Shown piece by piece: positions 3,606-29,223 of a stretch of DNA of 64,000 nt; position 1 is the stretch's first letter; each line of letters starts with the position of its first letter. The stretch covers positions 62,001 through 126,000 of the forward strand of contig BPIL01000002.1 in assembly GCA_026004095.1 (NCBI GenBank), read 5' to 3'. The translations under genes were made by a program, and so were the position numbers. A model generated the notes under the pieces. That model was given only the letters and a program-made list of their open reading frames with translations. It did not search any database and was not told where the DNA came from. The DNA comes from Meiothermus sp. GTDB lineage: Bacteria; Deinococcota; Deinococci; Deinococcales; Thermaceae.

Positions 3606-3692
3606 TGGTGCCGGGAACAGGACTTGAACCTGCACACCCTTGCGGGCGCATGACCCTGAATCATGTGCGTCTACCAATTCCGCCATCCCGGC
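3606..3692 (-). tRNA. tRNA-Leu (anticodon CAG)
   Basis: An 87-nt tRNA including an encoded CCA (3606-3608). The acceptor stem GCCGGGA pairs with TCCCGGC, with discriminator A. The D-arm contains GCGGAATTGGTAGACGC, the anticodon stem CATGA/TCATG encloses a loop TTCAGGG with anticodon CAG, a long class II variable arm follows, and the T-arm has the GTTCAAGTC segment. It reads leucine codon CTG, by far the commonest Leu codon in this window. Confidence 0.97.
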
Positions 3693-20392: not shown

Positions 20393-21457
20393 CTACACCG
20401 ACTGGAGGTGGGCATGAAACAGCGGGTCGAAGATGTGGGGCTTTTCCATGTGGGGTGAGTGGCCGGTGTCCGGGATCACCTCTTCGCGGAAGGAGCCGCC
20501 GTTGGCTCGGTACTGCTCGAGCACATAACGGGTCTGCCCCACCATCGGCTGCGGGGGGTGCACCTCGTCGCCCGGCCAGCCGGGCACCACCCCCAGTTTG
20601 CCCAGGGTGCCCATGTTGAAGAGGCTCATATCCCCCACAATCGGGTCGTCGGAGCCGCGCACCCAGAGGATGGGCGGCTTGGTGGGGGCCGAGAGCATTC
20701 TTTGCACGCTATCCCCCACGTACTTGGGCGAGATGGCGTTGGCCGGCCCCCACTTTCCAGGGGCGACCCCCGGCCAGTGGGGCGAAGGCACGGCGTCGCC
20801 GGGGTACTTATCAGGCCCAATTTTCTCCGAGAGCACGCCCGAGAGCAGGGCCTCCTCGCGGGGATGCCGGAAGGGCGGCTTCCAGTAGAAGCTGTTCATA
20901 ACGTTGCGGGGGGCGGCCTGAAACTCGCTGCCCCGGTAGCCCTCGGCGATGAGCCGGGCGAACTCGGGGTTGACAATACCCGCCCCCGAGCCGGCAAAGT
21001 CCGGGGCGCAGGGGGTGCCCTGGATGTCTTTGGTGCCGCCAAAGCCAAAAGGGGAGCCGGGCGCGATGACGGTGGCGGTGTGGATGCGCTCGGGGGCCGC
21101 CGCCAGCATGGCCCAGACCACGCTGCCGCCCAGCGAGTGGCCCGCTACGTGAAAGCGGGCATAACCCAGCAAGTCCATCAGGCCCAGGAGGTCGTCTACC
21201 CAGTCCATGCAGCCGCGGGTGGCGTCGACCAGCTTGTCTTCGGTGTCGCCATAGCCGCGCAGGTCGGGCGCGATGGCGCGAAAGCCATCCGGCAGGGCCA
21301 GCATGGTCTCTTCCCAGAAGGTATTGCTGCTGGCGTTGCCGTGAATCAGGAGCACCGGCACCCCGTCGGAAGGGCCCCGCAGCAGCACGTGCATCTTGAG
21401 ACGAGGGGTCTCGATCATGGTGGAAACCAGGCCTGGCAAGTTTGGGATGGAACCCAT
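20393..21457 (-). CDS. Alpha/beta-fold hydrolase
   Basis: A 354-aa hydrolase. Oxyanion-hole HGNASSNTFWEE, nucleophile Ser108 in GHSLGG, Asp in VRGSDDPIVGD and His in DTGHSPHMEKPH make a complete triad. The lid region between them (about 140-240) is larger than in simple esterases and unusually rich in Pro and Gly. The natural substrate is unknown; haloalkane dehalogenase- or lactonase-like activities are possible within the family. It heads a minus-strand run with the ATE-like gene 40 nt downstream and is divergent from ypdA. Confidence 0.82.
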   Translation of the reverse strand: MGSIPNLPGLVSTMIETPRLKMHVLLRGPSDGVPVLLIHGNASSNTFWEETMLALPDGFRAIAPDLRGYGDTEDKLVDATRGCMDWVDDLLGLMDLLGYARFHVAGHSLGGSVVWAMLAAAPERIHTATVIAPGSPFGFGGTKDIQGTPCAPDFAGSGAGIVNPEFARLIAEGYRGSEFQAAPRNVMNSFYWKPPFRHPREEALLSGVLSEKIGPDKYPGDAVPSPHWPGVAPGKWGPANAISPKYVGDSVQRMLSAPTKPPILWVRGSDDPIVGDMSLFNMGTLGKLGVVPGWPGDEVHPPQPMVGQTRYVLEQYRANGGSFREEVIPDTGHSPHMEKPHIFDPLFHAHLQSV

Positions 21458-21484
21458 AGCAAACTCCTTCGGTTTAGATATGCT

Positions 21485-21502
21485 GCAATGCTACTCCATT
21501 GC
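21485..21502. promoter_or_regulatory. Inverted repeat in the hydrolase/ypdA divergent promoter region
   Basis: GCAATG-N6-CATTGC is a perfect inverted repeat in the 103-bp divergent spacer, followed by a direct repeat of GTTAC (21505 and 21514 area). It may be an operator acting on either side. No regulator gene is adjacent. Confidence 0.35.
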
Positions 21503-21560
21503 TGTTACAAACCTGTTACCAGAACAATCGAATCCGGCCGGGCTGGGTATCCTTTGGGGT

Positions 21561-22550
21561 ATGTGGGATCTGGTGATTGTGGGGGCTGGGCCGGTGGGGT
21601 TGGCCGCTGCCATCGAGGCCAAGCGGGCGGGGCTGCGGGCGGTGGTGCTGGAAAAAGGCACCATCGTGCACACCCTGTACCGCTGGCCTAAGGAGACGGT
21701 CTTCTTCAGCGAGGCTAAAAACATCGAAATCGGGGGGCACCCTTTTCCTTCGCTCTCGGCCAAGCCTACCCGCCGCGAGGCCTTGCAGTACTACCGCCGG
21801 GTAGCCGAAAACGAAGGGCTGGATATCCGTACCTATACCGAGGTGACCGACCTATACCCTGGGCCGGGACATTTCAGGGTGAGCTACCGTGACCGCGATG
21901 GGGAGGGGGAGTTCAGGAGCCGTTTTGTGCTGGTGGCGACGGGCTACTACGACAACCCCAACCGCCTGGGGGTGCCGGGGGAGGATCTACCCCACGTGCG
22001 CTATGGCCTCGACGAAACCCTGCCCTACTGGAACCAGCGGGTGGTGGTGGTAGGGGGTTCCAACAGCGCGGTGGAGGCGGCCCTCGAGCTCTACCGCGCC
22101 GGGGCCAGGGTCACGGTGGTTCACCACGGGCCTGAGATTCGGCCCCGGGTCAAGTACTGGCTCAAACCCGACTTCGAGAACCGGGTGCGGGAGGGTTCCA
22201 TTCAGCTTTTGCTCAATACCAAGGTGCGGGAGATTGCCCCGCGGGCGGTGTGGGTGGAGACCTCGAGCGAGCAAGGCTTCCAGAGCATCCCCTGTGATTT
22301 TGTGCTCATCCACATCGGTTACAGGGCCGTGGATGGGCTATTGCGCCGGGCCGGGGTGGCCTACCAGGGCGACGCCCCAGTGCTCAGCGAGGCTTACGAG
22401 ACCAGCCTCGAGGGCCTCTTTGTGGCCGGAAGCGCGGGGTACGGGGCCGATACCCGCACGGTGTTTATCGAGAATGGCCGAGAGCACGCCAGTAGAGCTG
22501 TGCAGGAAATGGTCGCGCGCATGCAGAGAGCGAGCAGCGTAATTGTGTGA
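21561..22550 (+). CDS. ypdA: YpdA-family bacillithiol disulfide reductase
   Basis: Flavin-dependent NAD(P)H oxidoreductase of the YpdA/Bdr family, which reduces oxidised bacillithiol. The 329-aa protein starts MWDLVIVGAGPVGLAAAIEAKRAG (FAD GxGxxG) with a second dinucleotide fold VVVVGGSNSAVEAALELYRAG and a C-terminal FVAGSAGYGADTRTVFIENGR typical of YpdA. The ATG at 21561 is 7 nt after TATCCT (21548-21553), so it is probably leaderless. Bacillithiol is established in Deinococcus-Thermus, which fits. Confidence 0.9.
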   Translation: MWDLVIVGAGPVGLAAAIEAKRAGLRAVVLEKGTIVHTLYRWPKETVFFSEAKNIEIGGHPFPSLSAKPTRREALQYYRRVAENEGLDIRTYTEVTDLYPGPGHFRVSYRDRDGEGEFRSRFVLVATGYYDNPNRLGVPGEDLPHVRYGLDETLPYWNQRVVVVGGSNSAVEAALELYRAGARVTVVHHGPEIRPRVKYWLKPDFENRVREGSIQLLLNTKVREIAPRAVWVETSSEQGFQSIPCDFVLIHIGYRAVDGLLRRAGVAYQGDAPVLSEAYETSLEGLFVAGSAGYGADTRTVFIENGREHASRAVQEMVARMQRASSVIV

Positions 22551-22553
22551 GCC

Positions 22554-22583
22554 TTGACACGGTATACCAAACACCCGTAAACT
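22554..22583 (+). promoter_or_regulatory. Promoter of the ilv-leu-cimA operon
   Basis: TTGACA (22554-22559), 18-nt spacer, TAAACT (22578-22583). The spacer contains the palindrome GGTATACC (22561-22568), a GntR-type half-site pair also found at the pnt promoter. Confidence 0.85.
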
Positions 22584-22593
22584 CTTCCACAAG

Positions 22594-22668
22594 ATGCTTA
22601 TGCCGAGCAGCCTAATCCTAGCCGTGGTAGGCCTAGTAATTACCGGGCCTCGGGGGGATTTGGTCTAG
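22594..22668 (+). CDS. Leu/Val/Ile-rich leader peptide of the ilv attenuator
   Basis: A 24-codon frame beginning MLMPSSLILAVVGLVITG starts about 10 nt after the -10 box and stops at TAG 22666. Eleven of 24 residues are branched-chain: five Leu, four Val, two Ile. Three of the Leu codons are CTA, rare in this GC-rich genome, where CTG dominates. The codons cover the 5' half of a hairpin set that decides whether the downstream terminator forms. This is the classical design for sensing charged tRNA-Leu, tRNA-Val and tRNA-Ile. Confidence 0.88.
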   Translation: MLMPSSLILAVVGLVITGPRGDLV

Positions 22669-22724
22669 CGAAGAGCTTATAAGGCATCCTAAAGCCCCCC
22701 GAAGCCTCGGGGGGCGGTTCTTTG
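22629..22724 (+). promoter_or_regulatory. Transcription attenuator of ilvB operon (mutually exclusive hairpins)
   Basis: Terminator: GCCCCCCGA (22694-22702) with TCGGGGGGC (22707-22715) and GGTTCTTT after it. Antiterminator: TCGGGGGG (22650-22657, inside the leader peptide gene) pairs with CCCCCCGA (22695-22702), extended by GGC/GCC and TTT/AAA on its two sides. A protector hairpin AGGCC (22629-22633) with GGCCT (22646-22650) can sequester the antiterminator arm. A ribosome stalled on the Leu/Val codons would cover 22629-22633 and favour antitermination. Confidence 0.85.
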
Positions 22725-22735
22725 AGGAGAGAGGT

Positions 22736-24421
22736 ATGAACGGAGCCGCCGCCATCCTGAAAGCCCTGGAGATGCAGGGAGTGGATACCATTTTTGGGCA
22801 TCCAGGGGGCACCATTATGCCCACCTACGACGCCCTCTACGACTCGCCCATCCGGCACATCCTGGTGCGACACGAGCAGGCCGGTATACACGCCGCAACC
22901 GCCTATGCCCGGGCCTCGGGCCGGGTGGGGGTGTGCATGGCTACCTCGGGGCCAGGGGCCCTGAACCTGGTCACGGGGCTACAGGATGCCCTGATGGACT
23001 CCACGCCGGTGGTGGCCCTGACCGGCAACGTGCCCCAGCACCTGATTGGCACCGATGCCTTTCAGGAAGCCGACGTGGTGGGCATCACCCAGCCGGTCAC
23101 CAAGCACAACTTCCAGGTGCGCAACGTCAACGACATTCCGCGGATAATTGCCGAGGCTTTCTACATCGCCTCGACCGGACGGCCCGGCCCGGTCTTGATC
23201 GATTTCCCTAAAGATGTCCAGCAAGCCGAGTTTACCGGCAGCTTCGATGTGGAGATTAATCTGCCTGGCTACAAGCCCACCTACAAGGGCCATCCCCGGC
23301 AGATCGAGCGGGCCCTCGAGGCCCTGCAAAAAGCCGAAAAACCCGTGCTGATGGTGGGCGGTGGGGCGCTCAATGCAGCGCCGGAAATTGTGGCCCTGGC
23401 CGAGAAAACCGGCCTGCCGGTGATCCCGACCCTGATGGGGCTGGGGGTGTTCCCCGGAACCCATCCGCAGTGCCTGGGGATGCCGGGGATGCACGGCTCG
23501 GTGGCGGCCAACCGGGCCATCCACCACGCCGATACCATTCTGGCCATCGGCCTCCGCTTCGACGACCGGGTGACCGGCAAGGTTTCGCGCTTTGCCCCCC
23601 ATGCGCACACCGTTATTCATGTGGACATTGACCCCGCCGAGATCGGCAAGCTGGTCAAGACCACCATTCCGGTGGTGGGGGATGCTAAATGGGTGGCGGC
23701 GGAGCTGGTTAAGGGGGCCAAAAAGCTGAGCCTGAGCAAGTGGTGGGCGCAGCTCGAGGACTGGAAGATCAAGTACCCCTTTGCCTGGAAGCCCAAACCC
23801 CACCTGCAAAGCCAGGAGGTGATCCAGGCCTTCTGGGAGGCCACCAGGGGCAAAGCCGTGGTGACCGCGGGGGTGGGCCAGCACCAGATGTTTACCGCGC
23901 AGTTTTTTAAGTTCGATTCGCCGCGTTCCTGGATCAACTCCGGGGGCCTGGGCACCATGGGGGTGGGCCTGCCCTTTGCCATTGGGGCGGCGCTGGCCCG
24001 GCCCGGTGAGCTGGTGATCGACTTCGACGGCGATGGCAGCTTCCAGATGACTCTGCAGGAGCTGGCTACCCTCAAGAAACTCAACCTGAACGTCAAAATT
24101 GTGATTCTGAACAACGGCTTTTTGGGGATGGTGCGGCAGTGGCAGGATCTGTTCCATGCCAGGCGCTACAGCGAGGTCTACCTGGCCGACTCCAACCCCG
24201 ACTTCGCCAAGCTGGCCGAGGCCTACGGCATCCGGGGTATCACCCTGACCGATAAGGCCAAGCTGCACGAGACCGTCAAGGAGGTGCTGGCCCACCCCGG
24301 CCCGGTGCTACTGGAAGCGCGGGTCTACCACGAGGAAGGGGTTTTCCCCATGATTCCCTCGGGGGGTGCAGCAGAGGACATGATTATCGAGAACCCGCGG
24401 GAGACCGTGGCGGGCGACTAA
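22736..24421 (+). CDS. ilvB: Acetolactate synthase large subunit
   Basis: Thiamine diphosphate enzyme that makes acetolactate or acetohydroxybutyrate, the first common step to Val, Leu and Ile. 561 aa: MNGAAAILKALEMQGVDTIFGHPGG, catalytic Glu in HEQAGIHAATAYARASG (about 47), FAD region GLRFDDRVTGK, and the ThDP motif GDGSFQMTLQELATLKKLN..NN. Start ATG 22736 follows GAGGAGAGAGGT. First structural gene behind the attenuator; ilvN follows after 20 nt. Confidence 0.96.
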   Translation: MNGAAAILKALEMQGVDTIFGHPGGTIMPTYDALYDSPIRHILVRHEQAGIHAATAYARASGRVGVCMATSGPGALNLVTGLQDALMDSTPVVALTGNVPQHLIGTDAFQEADVVGITQPVTKHNFQVRNVNDIPRIIAEAFYIASTGRPGPVLIDFPKDVQQAEFTGSFDVEINLPGYKPTYKGHPRQIERALEALQKAEKPVLMVGGGALNAAPEIVALAEKTGLPVIPTLMGLGVFPGTHPQCLGMPGMHGSVAANRAIHHADTILAIGLRFDDRVTGKVSRFAPHAHTVIHVDIDPAEIGKLVKTTIPVVGDAKWVAAELVKGAKKLSLSKWWAQLEDWKIKYPFAWKPKPHLQSQEVIQAFWEATRGKAVVTAGVGQHQMFTAQFFKFDSPRSWINSGGLGTMGVGLPFAIGAALARPGELVIDFDGDGSFQMTLQELATLKKLNLNVKIVILNNGFLGMVRQWQDLFHARRYSEVYLADSNPDFAKLAEAYGIRGITLTDKAKLHETVKEVLAHPGPVLLEARVYHEEGVFPMIPSGGAAEDMIIENPRETVAGD

Positions 24422-24441: not shown

Positions 24442-24951
24442 ATGAGGCACTTGGTTTCGGTACTGGTACAGGACAACCCGGGCGTTTTGCAGCGTGTGGC
24501 TGGGCTGATTGCCCGTCGGGGCTTCAACATCGAGTCGCTGGCGGTGGGGCGCACCCATCAGCCGGGCCTTTCGCGCATCTCGCTGGTGGTTTCGGGCGAC
24601 GATGCGGTGCTGGAGCAGGTGGAGAAGCAGCTCAACCGACTGATTGAGGTTATTAAGGTAACCGACCACTCCGAGCCCCATGTGGAGCGCGAACTGGCGC
24701 TGGTCAAGGTGAGCATCGCCGGCATGGAGGAGCGCCTCGAGGTCAAGGACATCGCCGAGGCCTTCCGGGCCCGCATCGTGGACGTAGCCAAAAAATCCAT
24801 CATCTTCGAACTCACCGGCGACTCCACCAAGGTCAACAACTTTGTGGAGGCCATGCGGCCCTACGGGCTGCTCGAGGTCATGCGCACCGGCGCGGTGGGG
24901 ATGTCCCGCGGCGAGCAGGTGCTCAAGGTACGCGAGAAGAAGGCGGTCTAG
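24442..24951 (+). CDS. ilvN: Acetolactate synthase small (regulatory) subunit
   Basis: Regulatory subunit that gives valine feedback inhibition to IlvB. 169 aa: an N-terminal ACT domain (RHLVSVLVQDNPGVLQRVAGLIARRGFNIESL) followed by a second ACT-like half (ERELALVKVSIAGMEERLEVKDIAEAFRARIVDV). Length is normal for the long IlvH-type subunit. The stop is followed immediately by an intrinsic terminator-like hairpin before ilvC. Confidence 0.95.
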   Translation: MRHLVSVLVQDNPGVLQRVAGLIARRGFNIESLAVGRTHQPGLSRISLVVSGDDAVLEQVEKQLNRLIEVIKVTDHSEPHVERELALVKVSIAGMEERLEVKDIAEAFRARIVDVAKKSIIFELTGDSTKVNNFVEAMRPYGLLEVMRTGAVGMSRGEQVLKVREKKAV

Positions 24952-24983: not shown

Positions 24984-26048
<1,065 letters not shown>

Positions 26049-26074: not shown

Positions 26075-27634
26075 ATGCGGCACATCCGAATTTTCGATAC
26101 CACCCTGCGGGACGGTGAGCAGAGCCCTGGTGTAGCCCTTTCACTCCAGCAAAAGCTGGAAATCGCCCATGGGCTGGCCCGGCTCAACGTGGACATCATC
26201 GAGGCGGGCTTCCCGGTGAATGGGGCCAGCGAGTTCGAGTGTGTCTCGCGCATCGCCGCCGAGGTTAAAGGGCCGGTGATCTGCGCCCTGGCCCGTACCC
26301 ACAAGCTCGACATCGAGCGGGCCGCGGCGGCCCTCGAGAAGGCCGAGAAAAAGCGCATCCACGTGTTTACCAGCGCCTCCAAGGTGCACCTGCAGTATAT
26401 GCTGCGCAAGACCCCGGAGGAGATATTGGAAATTTCCGACGCCATGGTGCGCTATGCCCGGCAGTTCACCGACGATGTGGAGTTTAGCGCCCAGGACGTG
26501 ATGCGAGCCGACTTCGACTTCGTCATGAAGCTCTACGAGACCGCCATCAACGCCGGGGCCACCACCATCAACATCCCCGATACCACCGGCTACGGCACCC
26601 CACAGGAGTACGGGGCCCTCATCAAACGCATCTACGACGAGGTGGTGCGGGGGCGGGATGTGCACATCTCGGCCCACTGCCACGACGACCTGGGCATGGC
26701 CACTGCCAACAGCCTGGCCGCGGTGGAGAACGGGGCTACCCAGATCGAGTGCACCATCAACGGCATCGGGGAGCGGGCGGGCAACACCGCGCTGGAAGAG
26801 GTGGTGATGGCTTTGTACGTGCGCCGCGACCACTACAAGGCCCATACCCAGATCAACACCCGCGAGCTGTACCGCATGAGCCGGATGGTGGAGCGCTACA
26901 CCGGCATGGTGGTGCAGCCCAACAAGGCCATTGTGGGGGACAACGCCTTCGCCCACGAGTCGGGCATCCACCAGGACGGGGTCATCAAGAACAAAGAGAC
27001 CTACGAGATTATGAACGCCGAGCTGGTGGGCCGCCAGGCCGCGGTGCTGGTGCTGGGCAAGCACTCCGGGCGGGCCGCGGTCAAGAAAGCCCTGGCCGAC
27101 CTGGGTTACAAGCTGGACGACACCCAGATTGGCGCGATTTTTGCCCGCTTCCGGGAGATCGTGGAGCGCAAAGGCCCCATCGAGACCGAGGAACTGCGGG
27201 CCCTGGTGGAGAGCGAGTCGGTCTCGACCCCGCACCTGTTCAACCTCGAGAAGCTCCAGTTCTTCTCCGGCTATGGCATGCTGCCCACCGCTACGATAAG
27301 CCTCGAGACCCCCAAAGGCGTGGTCACCACCACCGCGATTGGGGACGGGCCGGTGGACGCGGTGTATAAGGCCCTGTCCGAGGCCATCGGGTTCAAGCCC
27401 GAGCTCGAGCTGTACCGGGTGGAGTCGGTGACCGGGAGCACCGAGGCTTTGGGCGAGGTGACGGTCAAGCTCAAGCTGGGCGAGGTGATGGCCACCGGGC
27501 ACGGAATTTCCCCGGACATCATCGAGGCTTCGGCGCGGGCCTACCTGGATGCCGCCAACAAGCTGGCCGCGGGGCAGTCGGCGCGGCATCCGAAGTCGCT
27601 TGAGGAAGTGCAGCGCTCGGGTTTGGGCAAATAA
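26075..27634 (+). CDS. leuA: 2-isopropylmalate synthase
   Basis: Condenses acetyl-CoA with 2-ketoisovalerate, the committed step to leucine. 519 aa. The catalytic barrel starts MRHIRIFDTTLRDGEQSPGVALS; metal ligands are in AHCHDDLGMA, and substrate segments EAGFPVNGASEFE and GNTALEEVVMAL are typical of LeuA. The last about 150 residues form the LeuA allosteric dimer domain (FSGYGMLPTATISL) for leucine feedback. Two nt separate its stop from cimA. Confidence 0.95.
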   Translation: MRHIRIFDTTLRDGEQSPGVALSLQQKLEIAHGLARLNVDIIEAGFPVNGASEFECVSRIAAEVKGPVICALARTHKLDIERAAAALEKAEKKRIHVFTSASKVHLQYMLRKTPEEILEISDAMVRYARQFTDDVEFSAQDVMRADFDFVMKLYETAINAGATTINIPDTTGYGTPQEYGALIKRIYDEVVRGRDVHISAHCHDDLGMATANSLAAVENGATQIECTINGIGERAGNTALEEVVMALYVRRDHYKAHTQINTRELYRMSRMVERYTGMVVQPNKAIVGDNAFAHESGIHQDGVIKNKETYEIMNAELVGRQAAVLVLGKHSGRAAVKKALADLGYKLDDTQIGAIFARFREIVERKGPIETEELRALVESESVSTPHLFNLEKLQFFSGYGMLPTATISLETPKGVVTTTAIGDGPVDAVYKALSEAIGFKPELELYRVESVTGSTEALGEVTVKLKLGEVMATGHGISPDIIEASARAYLDAANKLAAGQSARHPKSLEEVQRSGLGK

Positions 27635-27636
27635 CC

Positions 27637-29223
27637 ATGATCGAAATCCTCGACACCACCCTCCGCGACGGCACCCAGGGCGAAGCAGTCAACCTGTCCT
27701 CGGACGACAAGATCGCCATCGCCAAGCGCCTGGCGGCTTTTGGGGTTCCCCTCATCGAGGGGGGATGGCCGGGCAGCAACCCCAAGGACGCCGAGTTCTT
27801 TGCCCGCATGAAGGGGGTAGACCTGGGGAGTAGCCAGCTCTGCGCCTTTGGCTCCACCCGGCGCAAGGGGGTGCGGCCCGAGGACGACCCCTCGGTGCAG
27901 GCCATGCTGGCGGCGGCCACCCCGGTGGTTACGGTGGTAGCCAAAAGCTGGGACTTCCACGTGACCCACGCGCTCGAGGTCTCCCTGGAAGAAAATCTGC
28001 GCATGATCGAGGAGACCTACCGCTACCTGGTCAAGGAGGGCAGGCGGGTGATTCACGACGCCGAGCACTTCTTCAACGGCTTCAAGGCCAACCGGGGCTA
28101 TGCCCTGGCTACGCTCGAGGCCGCCGTGCGGGGCGGGGCCGACACCCTGTGCTTATGTGATACCAACGGGGGCAGCCTGCCCGAAGAGGTCTTCGAGATC
28201 ACCCAGGCCGTGCGCCAGGCCTTCCCCGGCGTGACCATTGGGATTCACCCCCACAACGATGCGGAGCTGGCGGTAGCCAACGCCCTGGCTGCGGTGCGGG
28301 CCGGGGCCACCCACGTGCAGGGCACCATCAACGGCTACGGCGAGCGCTGCGGCAACCTGAACCTGACCAGCGCCATCCCCAACCTGATGCTCAAGTACGG
28401 CCTGCCGCTCAAAGGGCTCACCCCCGAAAAACTCGTCGAGCTGCGCGAGGTCTCGCACTTTGTGGACGAACGGGCCAACCTGGCCCCCAACATCCGCGCG
28501 CCCTACGTGGGGGATGCGGCCTTTGCCCACAAGGGGGGCATCCACGTCTCGGCGGTGCTCAAAGACCCCCGCACCTACGAGCACGTGCCGCCCGAGGCGG
28601 TGGGCAACAGCCGCCGGGTGCTGGTCTCTGACCTCTCGGGCCGGAGCAACCTGCTGGCCAAGCTGGCCGAGTCCGGGGTTAATGTGCCCAAGGAGATGGC
28701 CGGGGCCTTGCTGGAAGAGGTCAAGCAGCTCGAGCACGCCGGCTACTCGTTTGAAGGGGCCGAGGCCAGTTTCTACCTGCTGGCCCACAAGCTGCGGGGC
28801 GGGCAGATGCCCTTCAGCGTGGAAGGCTTCACGGTATTTGTGCACGTCAACGATGCCAACCCCGAGACCCCCACCTGGGCCGAGGCCACGGTGCGGGTCA
28901 AGGTGGGTGAGACCCTCCAGCACACCGCCGCCGAAAGCCAGCATGGGCCGGTCTCGGCGCTGGACAAAGCCTTCCGCAAGGCCATTGAGCCCTTTTACCC
29001 CGAGATCGCCGAGATCGAGCTTTGCGATTACAAGGTGCGCATCCTTTCGGGCCAGGAGGCTGGTACGGCCTCCGGGGTGCGGGTCATGATCGAGATGCAC
29101 CGGGCCGGGGAGCGCTGGAGCACCGTGGGGGCCAGTAAAAACAACCTCGAGGCCTCCCTCAAAGCCCTCACCGATGGCTACGCCTATGCCTTGGTGAAGG
29201 GCCAGCCCATACCGCAGGACTAG
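27637..29223 (+). CDS. cimA: (R)-citramalate synthase
   Basis: Makes citramalate from pyruvate and acetyl-CoA, opening a threonine-independent route to 2-ketobutyrate and isoleucine. 528 aa with MIEILDTTLRDGTQGEAVNLS, EGGWPGSNPKDAEFFARM (the CimA-type substrate segment, unlike LeuA), HDAEHFFNGFKANRGYALATL, CDTNGGSLP, HPHNDAELAVANALA and a C-terminal regulatory domain. It is translationally adjacent to leuA (2 nt), so Leu and Ile entry enzymes are made together under the attenuator. Ends overlapping the convergent methyltransferase gene by 4 nt. Confidence 0.94.
   Translation: MIEILDTTLRDGTQGEAVNLSSDDKIAIAKRLAAFGVPLIEGGWPGSNPKDAEFFARMKGVDLGSSQLCAFGSTRRKGVRPEDDPSVQAMLAAATPVVTVVAKSWDFHVTHALEVSLEENLRMIEETYRYLVKEGRRVIHDAEHFFNGFKANRGYALATLEAAVRGGADTLCLCDTNGGSLPEEVFEITQAVRQAFPGVTIGIHPHNDAELAVANALAAVRAGATHVQGTINGYGERCGNLNLTSAIPNLMLKYGLPLKGLTPEKLVELREVSHFVDERANLAPNIRAPYVGDAAFAHKGGIHVSAVLKDPRTYEHVPPEAVGNSRRVLVSDLSGRSNLLAKLAESGVNVPKEMAGALLEEVKQLEHAGYSFEGAEASFYLLAHKLRGGQMPFSVEGFTVFVHVNDANPETPTWAEATVRVKVGETLQHTAAESQHGPVSALDKAFRKAIEPFYPEIAEIELCDYKVRILSGQEAGTASGVRVMIEMHRAGERWSTVGASKNNLEASLKALTDGYAYALVKGQPIPQD

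Follow-up and report, generated by a model that had tools for sequence, protein, structure and literature searches.

The ilvGMEDA, ilvBN and leu operons of Escherichia coli are controlled by leader-peptide attenuation through codons for branched-chain amino acids (BCAAs), with a 5' UTR that carries a ribosome-binding site and, in leu, the rare CUA, a rare Leu codon that raises the sensitivity of the leader to shortage. In Thermus thermophilus, lysine-dependent attenuation by a leader peptide in front of lys20 was reportedly described by Tsubouchi et al. in 2005. Attenuators without a conventional 5' UTR have precedents in Actinobacteria (PMC11857589, PMC8079986): leaderless BCAA leaders with the same attenuation logic are established in Corynebacterium (PMC11857589, PMC10272879), and the leaderless leaders ilvL, leuL, thrL (before thrS) and others are reported for Streptomyces lividans in PMC8079986. 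Attenuation of ilvB1 is described in Mycobacterium tuberculosis (PMC13236596). As stated in PMC12340547, leaderless expression with the -10 element adjoining the ORF is common in Deinococcus-Thermus; neither "attenuat" nor "leader peptide" occurs in the main text of that paper.

We analyzed a window of 64,000 nucleotides of Meiothermus DNA (the whole stretch, to whose forward strand all coordinates refer) and conclude, with a probability of about 0.87, that its ilvB leader, on an mRNA that is nearly leaderless, attenuates transcription by way of the ribosome. The elements of the locus follow the order promoter, 10 nt, an ORF of 24 codons, a terminator hairpin and ilvB-ilvN-ilvC-leuA-cimA, with 67 nt between the leader stop and ilvB, the ATG of which lies 20 nt past the end of the hairpin. 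The operon that a sequence-only reading had placed downstream of the attenuator was matched in all its five genes by NCBIfam: ilvB, acetolactate synthase large subunit (22736-24421; TIGR00118, 776 bits), ilvN, acetolactate synthase small subunit (24442-24951; TIGR00119), ilvC, ketol-acid reductoisomerase (25029-26048; TIGR00465), leuA, 2-isopropylmalate synthase (26075-27634; TIGR00973) and cimA, citramalate synthase (27637-29223; TIGR00977). The same reading had proposed ribosome-mediated attenuation decided by stalls at CTA and GTA codons, an interpretation that the conserved leader frame and pairings described below support.

We looked for ilvB in 61 genomes from the same order, and upstream DNA was obtained for 59 of them; those left out were G005, whose contig ends at ilvB, and G049, a genome 58% complete with a partial, distant match. 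A same-genus relative, G011, has an IlvB 99% identical to that of the window. The layout, a near-leaderless ORF plus a terminator, is shared by 59 of the 61 genomes, spread over 20 genera and 5 families, and the two that remain are those without upstream sequence. Each of the 59 has a promoter, an ORF of 16-34 codons and a terminator hairpin 13-29 nt past the stop codon. The near-leaderless form, previously pointed out in a Thermaceae genome, is not peculiar to that family and occurs in all five families sampled. The script used for picking leaders favours BCAA-rich candidates; a composition-blind rule gave the same ORF in 51 of the 59 genomes and nothing in 8. From 2950 dinucleotide shuffles of the upstream regions, scored almost identically to the picking score minus its start-codon bonus, 54 contained any candidate, 12 scored at least as high as the lowest real leader and none reached the median; the layout is not due to chance. 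Among 80 named loci inspected upstream of ilvB, 13 of the 14 from Deinococcota showed the layout, as did 2 of the remaining 66, with a finder that requires BCAA residues and with most of the 14 Deinococcota loci being genomes already counted (L123 has no upstream DNA, L159 is a possible case and L179 a likely chance one).

The upstream neighbour of the leader, a YpdA-like reductase gene (21396-22550), is co-directional and ends 3 nt before the -35 hexamer, such that the hairpin could be the terminator of this gene and the short ORF be devoid of any regulatory role. We regard this as the least probable of the explanations considered: by eye, the DNA 5' of the promoter varies widely from genome to genome, whereas the unit of promoter, leader and terminator remains intact, and a terminator of the upstream gene would not account for the conserved frame, the rare codons and the antiterminator pairing presented below.

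The promoter (22554-22583) is composed of TTGACA (-35, 22554-22559) and TAAACT (-10, 22578-22583) separated by 18 nt, with 10 of 12 hexamer matches, and a generic scan found one such site where 0.2 were expected. It had been called strong, a description that suits the -35 hexamer but not the -10, where only 4 of 6 positions match. Exact TTGACA is present in 58 of the 59 script-picked ilvB leaders, and in all 59 the start codon lies 7-10 nt past the end of the -10 element, with 5' ends predicted from sequence. RNA synthesis is predicted to start approximately 0-4 nt before the leader ATG, in which case the ribosome must load on a bare 5' end. The tetranucleotide CAAG directly 5' of the start codon (22590-22593) is possibly the whole 5' UTR, given the predicted transcription start; it precedes the start of the ilvB leader in 34/36 Thermaceae, in 7/8 members of family f4 and in 0/15 genomes of the other three families, and it is found in 0/18 leaderless-pattern hits with ORFs of at least 60 aa. 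CAAG may act as a minimal 5' UTR or as a loading signal.

The promoter spacer contains a palindrome, GGTATACC (22561-22568), a candidate operator that would add a second layer of control. It is located between the -35 and -10 of ilvB in 23 of the 59 genomes, namely all 21 of genera g1, g2 and g4 and both of g9, and it occurs twice in the window, against 0.35 expected. The 12-mer TTGGTATACCAA has a single occurrence in the genome of the window (G000), in the leuC promoter spacer (L287, C2:145234-145245), and likewise one each in G016 and G022, at leuC; G040 has five sites. The palindrome resembles an operator, at which a DNA-binding regulator would act in addition to attenuation.

The leader peptide ORF, MLMPSSLILAVVGLVITGPRGDLV (22594-22668, 24 codons plus the stop), contains, as had been claimed, 5 Leu (CTT, three CTA, TTG), 4 Val (GTG, two GTA, GTC) and 2 Ile (ATC, ATT) codons; the earlier coordinates and counts for the leader and its pairings all proved correct against the sequence. 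Across the 59 leaders the ORF is short and enriched in codons for what the operon produces: BCAA residues make up 0.40 of the residues versus 0.20 in the 54 shuffle candidates, and six of the leaders have just 4-6 of them (G037, G041, G053, G054, G055 and G059). Conservation of the leader frame in relatives, a check proposed earlier, was run: counting the stop codon, the BCAA fraction is 0.388 (0.39) when this DNA is read in the leader frame, and its two remaining frames give 0.126 and 0.114. CTA accounts for 148 of 255 Leu codons and GTA for 84 of 199 Val codons in the 59 leaders, with ATA at 0 of 95 Ile codons. The background, taken from the window alone, is 3.6% CTA and 10.5% GTA in the long ORFs of the window (n=52, greedy pick) and 1.1% and 6.5%, respectively, in the five ilv-operon genes. 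Part of this bias may also serve base pairing.

The conserved structure of the ilvB leader would also be expected of a ligand-binding riboswitch or a T-box controlling ilvB with the ORF as an incidental presence, and a ppGpp riboswitch does control this gene in some bacteria, according to PMC10272879. Such an element would leave the concentration of BCAA codons in a single frame unexplained. In addition, Rfam, which includes the ppGpp riboswitch and T-box classes, gave no match at gathering score in the ilvB leader; its sole match at that score in the window is a tRNA (3609-3692), and a relaxed search of 22500-22800 returned five matches far below gathering scores, none of them a riboswitch or T-box. 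We therefore consider a riboswitch or T-box very improbable here.

An intrinsic-terminator-like hairpin of 9 bp (22694-22715) follows the leader. Its 5' arm includes region 3, CCCCCCGA (22695-22702), which is complementary to region 2, TCGGGGGG (22650-22657), the 5' strand of the antiterminator, located within the ORF; both this complementarity and the terminator stem, noted in the sequence-only reading, were confirmed. A terminator hairpin is situated between leader and first gene in 59 of 59 leaders, and in the window its T tail, GGTTCTTTG, is poor. A generic scan of 22000-23200 yielded one terminator-like site versus 0.6 in shuffles. With a stricter score for hairpins past the stop codon, 0 of 1180 shuffles from the 59 genomes reached the native value (0/20 for the window), 461 of the 1180 giving some hairpin with a T tail. 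The pairings were assessed by cross-genus swaps, with one random genome for each of the 20 genera and 20 draws of 1000 derangements, a control that leaves the within-genome similarity in base composition in place; the segments were the ORF end with the terminator 5' arm for the antiterminator, and the ORF middle with the ORF end for the protector. Native antiterminators had -16.5 kcal/mol versus -13.7 for the swaps (z -5.9), and none of the 20,000 derangements was as good, such that by this measure an antiterminator that excludes the terminator is found over the 20 genera.

The poor T tail, the 20 nt that separate the hairpin from the ilvB ATG and the similarly short distance of 17-33 nt in Thermaceae and f4 are what would be expected if control were exerted on translation of ilvB and not on termination, with the hairpins altering access to its ribosome-binding site. 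However, the Shine-Dalgarno-like GAGGAGAGAGG (22724-22734) is outside the terminator and antiterminator pairings, in families f2, f3 and f5 a distance of 43-167 nt separates the hairpin from the point where the ilvB match begins, and in f5 the hairpin is followed by runs of 5-6 T. Translational control appears to us unlikely, and transcription attenuation is the reading that we pursue in what follows.

A protector hairpin had been proposed between AGGCC (22629-22633) and GGCCT (22646-22650). These strands do pair, but only as the tip of a longer hairpin, which in the minimum-energy fold runs from 22602 to 22676 and takes up most of the ORF, and the 5-bp version as sole protector was dropped on account of it. 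In the longer hairpin, the 5' strand (22602-22637, region 1) covers most of the Leu, Ile and Val codons of the leader and the 3' strand (22642-22676) includes region 2, as supported by the fold and the swaps. Native protectors reached -20.4 versus -16.6 kcal/mol (z -6.1; 0 of 20,000 derangements as good). As for the protector excluding the antiterminator, the pairing is conserved, and without a ribosome the protector loses in the truncated-transcript folds of G000 and of f5. Hairpin conservation, the second check proposed for relatives, gave a positive answer when run: in the comparison of 20 genera, both the antiterminator and the protector are conserved as pairings.

Folded as far as the terminator, the window sequence has as its lowest-energy form a single closed structure, in which a helix absent from the earlier reading, here P0, encloses the ORF hairpin. 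The 5' arm of P0, GATGCTT (22593-22599), includes the start codon, and its 3' arm, AGGCATC (22682-22688), is located between the leader stop and the terminator; both arms came from the window fold and from RNAalifold. In the swaps, which for P0 set the region of the start codon against the stretch from stop to terminator, native pairs had -11.0 versus -8.8 kcal/mol (z -4.0; 4 of 20,000 derangements as good). A second control, with shuffled post-stop sequence and a slid 5' window, gave a mean z of -1.26 with 17 of 20 genera below zero, and in five shifted control windows the mean z was -0.23 to +0.15 with 8-10 of 20 genera below zero. The best P0 duplex pairs at least two start-codon bases in 54 of 59 genomes. 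P0 is weak in G013, G038 and G044, and in f5 the native pairing is no better than the swaps (-5.55 versus -5.67).

Unguided RNAalifold on 35 Thermaceae rows (the leaders of G028 and G030 are identical and one was dropped) recovered P0, part of the protector and the terminator, and 71-77% of the alignment cells were paired versus 38-50% in slid versions. In genus g4 (2 genomes), the start codon of the leader is GTG, and on the P0 partner strand the T opposite it is changed to C; compensatory change in the P0 core within Thermaceae amounts to one event, and covariation in this family barely exceeds that of column shuffles, of which 49 and 3 of 500 scored as high. Outside Thermaceae, the P0 partners have other sequences that nonetheless still match, for instance in G058, G056, G046 and G055. 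The parts, their conservation, the codon bias and the competing pairings were all obtained by computation.

We then considered a model in which a ribosome is moved along the leader, the RNA that it covers is hidden and the upstream pairing of region 3 is read once the terminator loop is made, using folding energies for 37°C without kinetics, for Thermus-like organisms that grow hotter. With stalls on BCAA codons, the last six codons excluded, region 3 was paired upstream at family means of 0.63-0.79, versus 0.16-0.26 with the ribosome at the last codon or the stop, and by eye the drop is located close to where the BCAA cluster ends. When the codons were permuted, the switch was halved from 0.53 to 0.26 (20 genera), and 74 of 500 permuted leaders matched native performance, including 16/25 in G046 and 9/25 in G055. 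In the ribosome-free fold of truncated transcripts, the sequence of the window itself favours the antiterminator (0.89); family means are 0.26-0.88, and Thermus-type leaders of g5 have 0.00-0.06. In f5 the ribosome-free mean (0.88) exceeds the stalled one (0.79), such that stalling adds nothing in the model. Because the ribosome-free fold favours the antiterminator in the window and in f5, the default state without translation is uncertain, also in this species; these f5 folds, together with the short distance from hairpin to ilvB, make attenuation slightly less likely and translational control slightly more so.

Taken together, we infer from the sequence the start of transcription, translation of the leader, termination, the response to amino acids and the role of P0, in the following scheme. 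With ample charged tRNA, the ribosome would reach the UAG and cover region 2, such that the terminator would form and synthesis would stop before ilvB. If Leu-, Val- or Ile-tRNA ran short, the ribosome would stall where BCAA codons cluster, the rare CTA and GTA being numerous among them, and region 2 would be left free to pair with the 5' arm of the terminator, so that the operon would be transcribed. On a leader without a ribosome, the ORF would fold on itself as the protector, and P0 would pair the start codon with the bases just before the terminator and close the RNA, presumably blocking late or repeated loading and favouring the off state.

Leaders of this kind may not be restricted to ilvB. 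A scan for leaderless promoters gave 39 hits in three genomes, all of which were read, and 103 in six more, of which 20 were read, chosen by eye and partly for CAAG, with the addition of others known from separate analyses. Among the hits read were further short ORFs before amino-acid genes, mostly with a hairpin after them. They include thrS leaders, most with Thr codons (L085, L226-L255), an asd leader in G000 with four Thr codons (L091), lys20-like leaders with two Lys codons (L094, L098 and L105; the lys20-like fragment of G000 was named by eye, without an NCBIfam match) and leaders with Asp/Asn runs before aspS2, the nondiscriminating aspartate--tRNA(Asn) ligase (L256-L283). Others are argG leaders with Arg codons (L108, L111), trpB leaders with Trp codons (L100, L113), a DAHP synthase leader with Phe, Tyr and Trp codons (L101), a leader with one Phe codon before a gene that is pheS-like by eye and has no NCBIfam match (L119), and leuC leaders (L070, L106, L116 and others); L108 and L113 have no script-detected terminator. 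CAAG also precedes several of these sister leaders, some of the hits having been picked for reading because of it.

For 30 of the 61 genomes, sister leaders were picked composition-blind; the gene matches there were 30 thrS (two of them at contig ends and read less exactly), 28 aspS2 and 26 leuC, and leaders were present at 11, 19 and 14 of these genes, respectively; these counts are lower bounds, as the misses include sub-threshold leaders (leuC in G000), though many genes may truly have none. Thr makes up 27 of 133 residues in the thrS leaders versus 59 of 1123 in the other sets, and Asp/Asn 60 of 194 in the aspS2 leaders versus 40 of 1062, with 0 of 2000 permutations as high in either case. 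The leuC leaders showed no Leu enrichment (33/255 residues versus 146/1001 for the remaining sets, with 1489 of 2000 permutations reaching that level), and therefore we do not count leuC as support for amino-acid sensing. The leuC leaders keep their place, and several end in PWA or RWA.

We tentatively suggest, as a possibility well short of an even chance, that leaderless leader-peptide attenuators form a general amino-acid sensing system in Deinococcota with P0 as a one-shot loading lock; its range would be BCAA, Thr and Asp/Asn, and probably Lys, Arg, Trp and the aromatic amino acids. The first bases of the transcript would be both the landing site of the ribosome and a strand of the helix closed beside the terminator, leaving a short time for one ribosome per transcript before P0 shuts the start codon. 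Such a system would be a testable, phylum-wide case of attenuation on leaderless mRNA, where loading of the ribosome competes with folding of the 5' end of the RNA. For a lineage rich in leaderless genes, it suggests a possible way of sensing amino acids, by attenuators before biosynthetic and tRNA-synthetase genes, including the nondiscriminating aspS2 with its Asp/Asn codons, and these short ORFs may be absent from genome annotations.

With regard to the described systems, the mechanism is known and its leaderless form is known elsewhere; as far as the literature was searched, what is new here is the BCAA case in this phylum. The search, in which most subscription papers were outside coverage such that it is weak evidence of absence, found no paper on attenuation, whether of BCAA genes or through a leader peptide, for Thermus, Meiothermus or Deinococcus and, with the same coverage, neither the thrS and aspS2 sister leaders nor a start-codon helix closed by sequence 3' of the leader. 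The ilvGMEDA, ilvBN and leu operons of E. coli are alike in attenuation by BCAA codons but unlike in their 5' UTR with a ribosome-binding site. The reported lys20 case of T. thermophilus belongs to the same phylum, and in G032 a near-leaderless ORF containing two Lys codons, together with a hairpin-like stretch, precedes a homocitrate-synthase gene, but that case concerns lysine and not BCAA. S. lividans, in the accessible part of PMC8079986, shares the presence of several leaderless leaders per genome before amino-acid and tRNA-synthetase genes, but several of them have no clear terminator, and leaders before aspS2, argG, lys20 and asd, found in Deinococcota, are not among the S. lividans leaders given there. 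The closest parallel in arrangement is ilvBNC of C. glutamicum with its ilvB-II motif. As described in PMC11857589 and PMC10272879, it has a BCAA leader ORF, a transcript that begins one nucleotide away from the start codon, a terminator, an antiterminator and H1, the anti-antiterminator, that reportedly shields the region where the ribosome lands; its leader has 15 codons and its transcript starts 292 bp before ilvB, whereas the leaders here have 16-34 codons and, in the window, ilvB follows 67 nt after the leader stop. Unlike in C. glutamicum, as far as it is described there, in the leaders presented here the start codon pairs past the stop codon, Leu and Val codons are biased to CTA and GTA, and the phylum is another.
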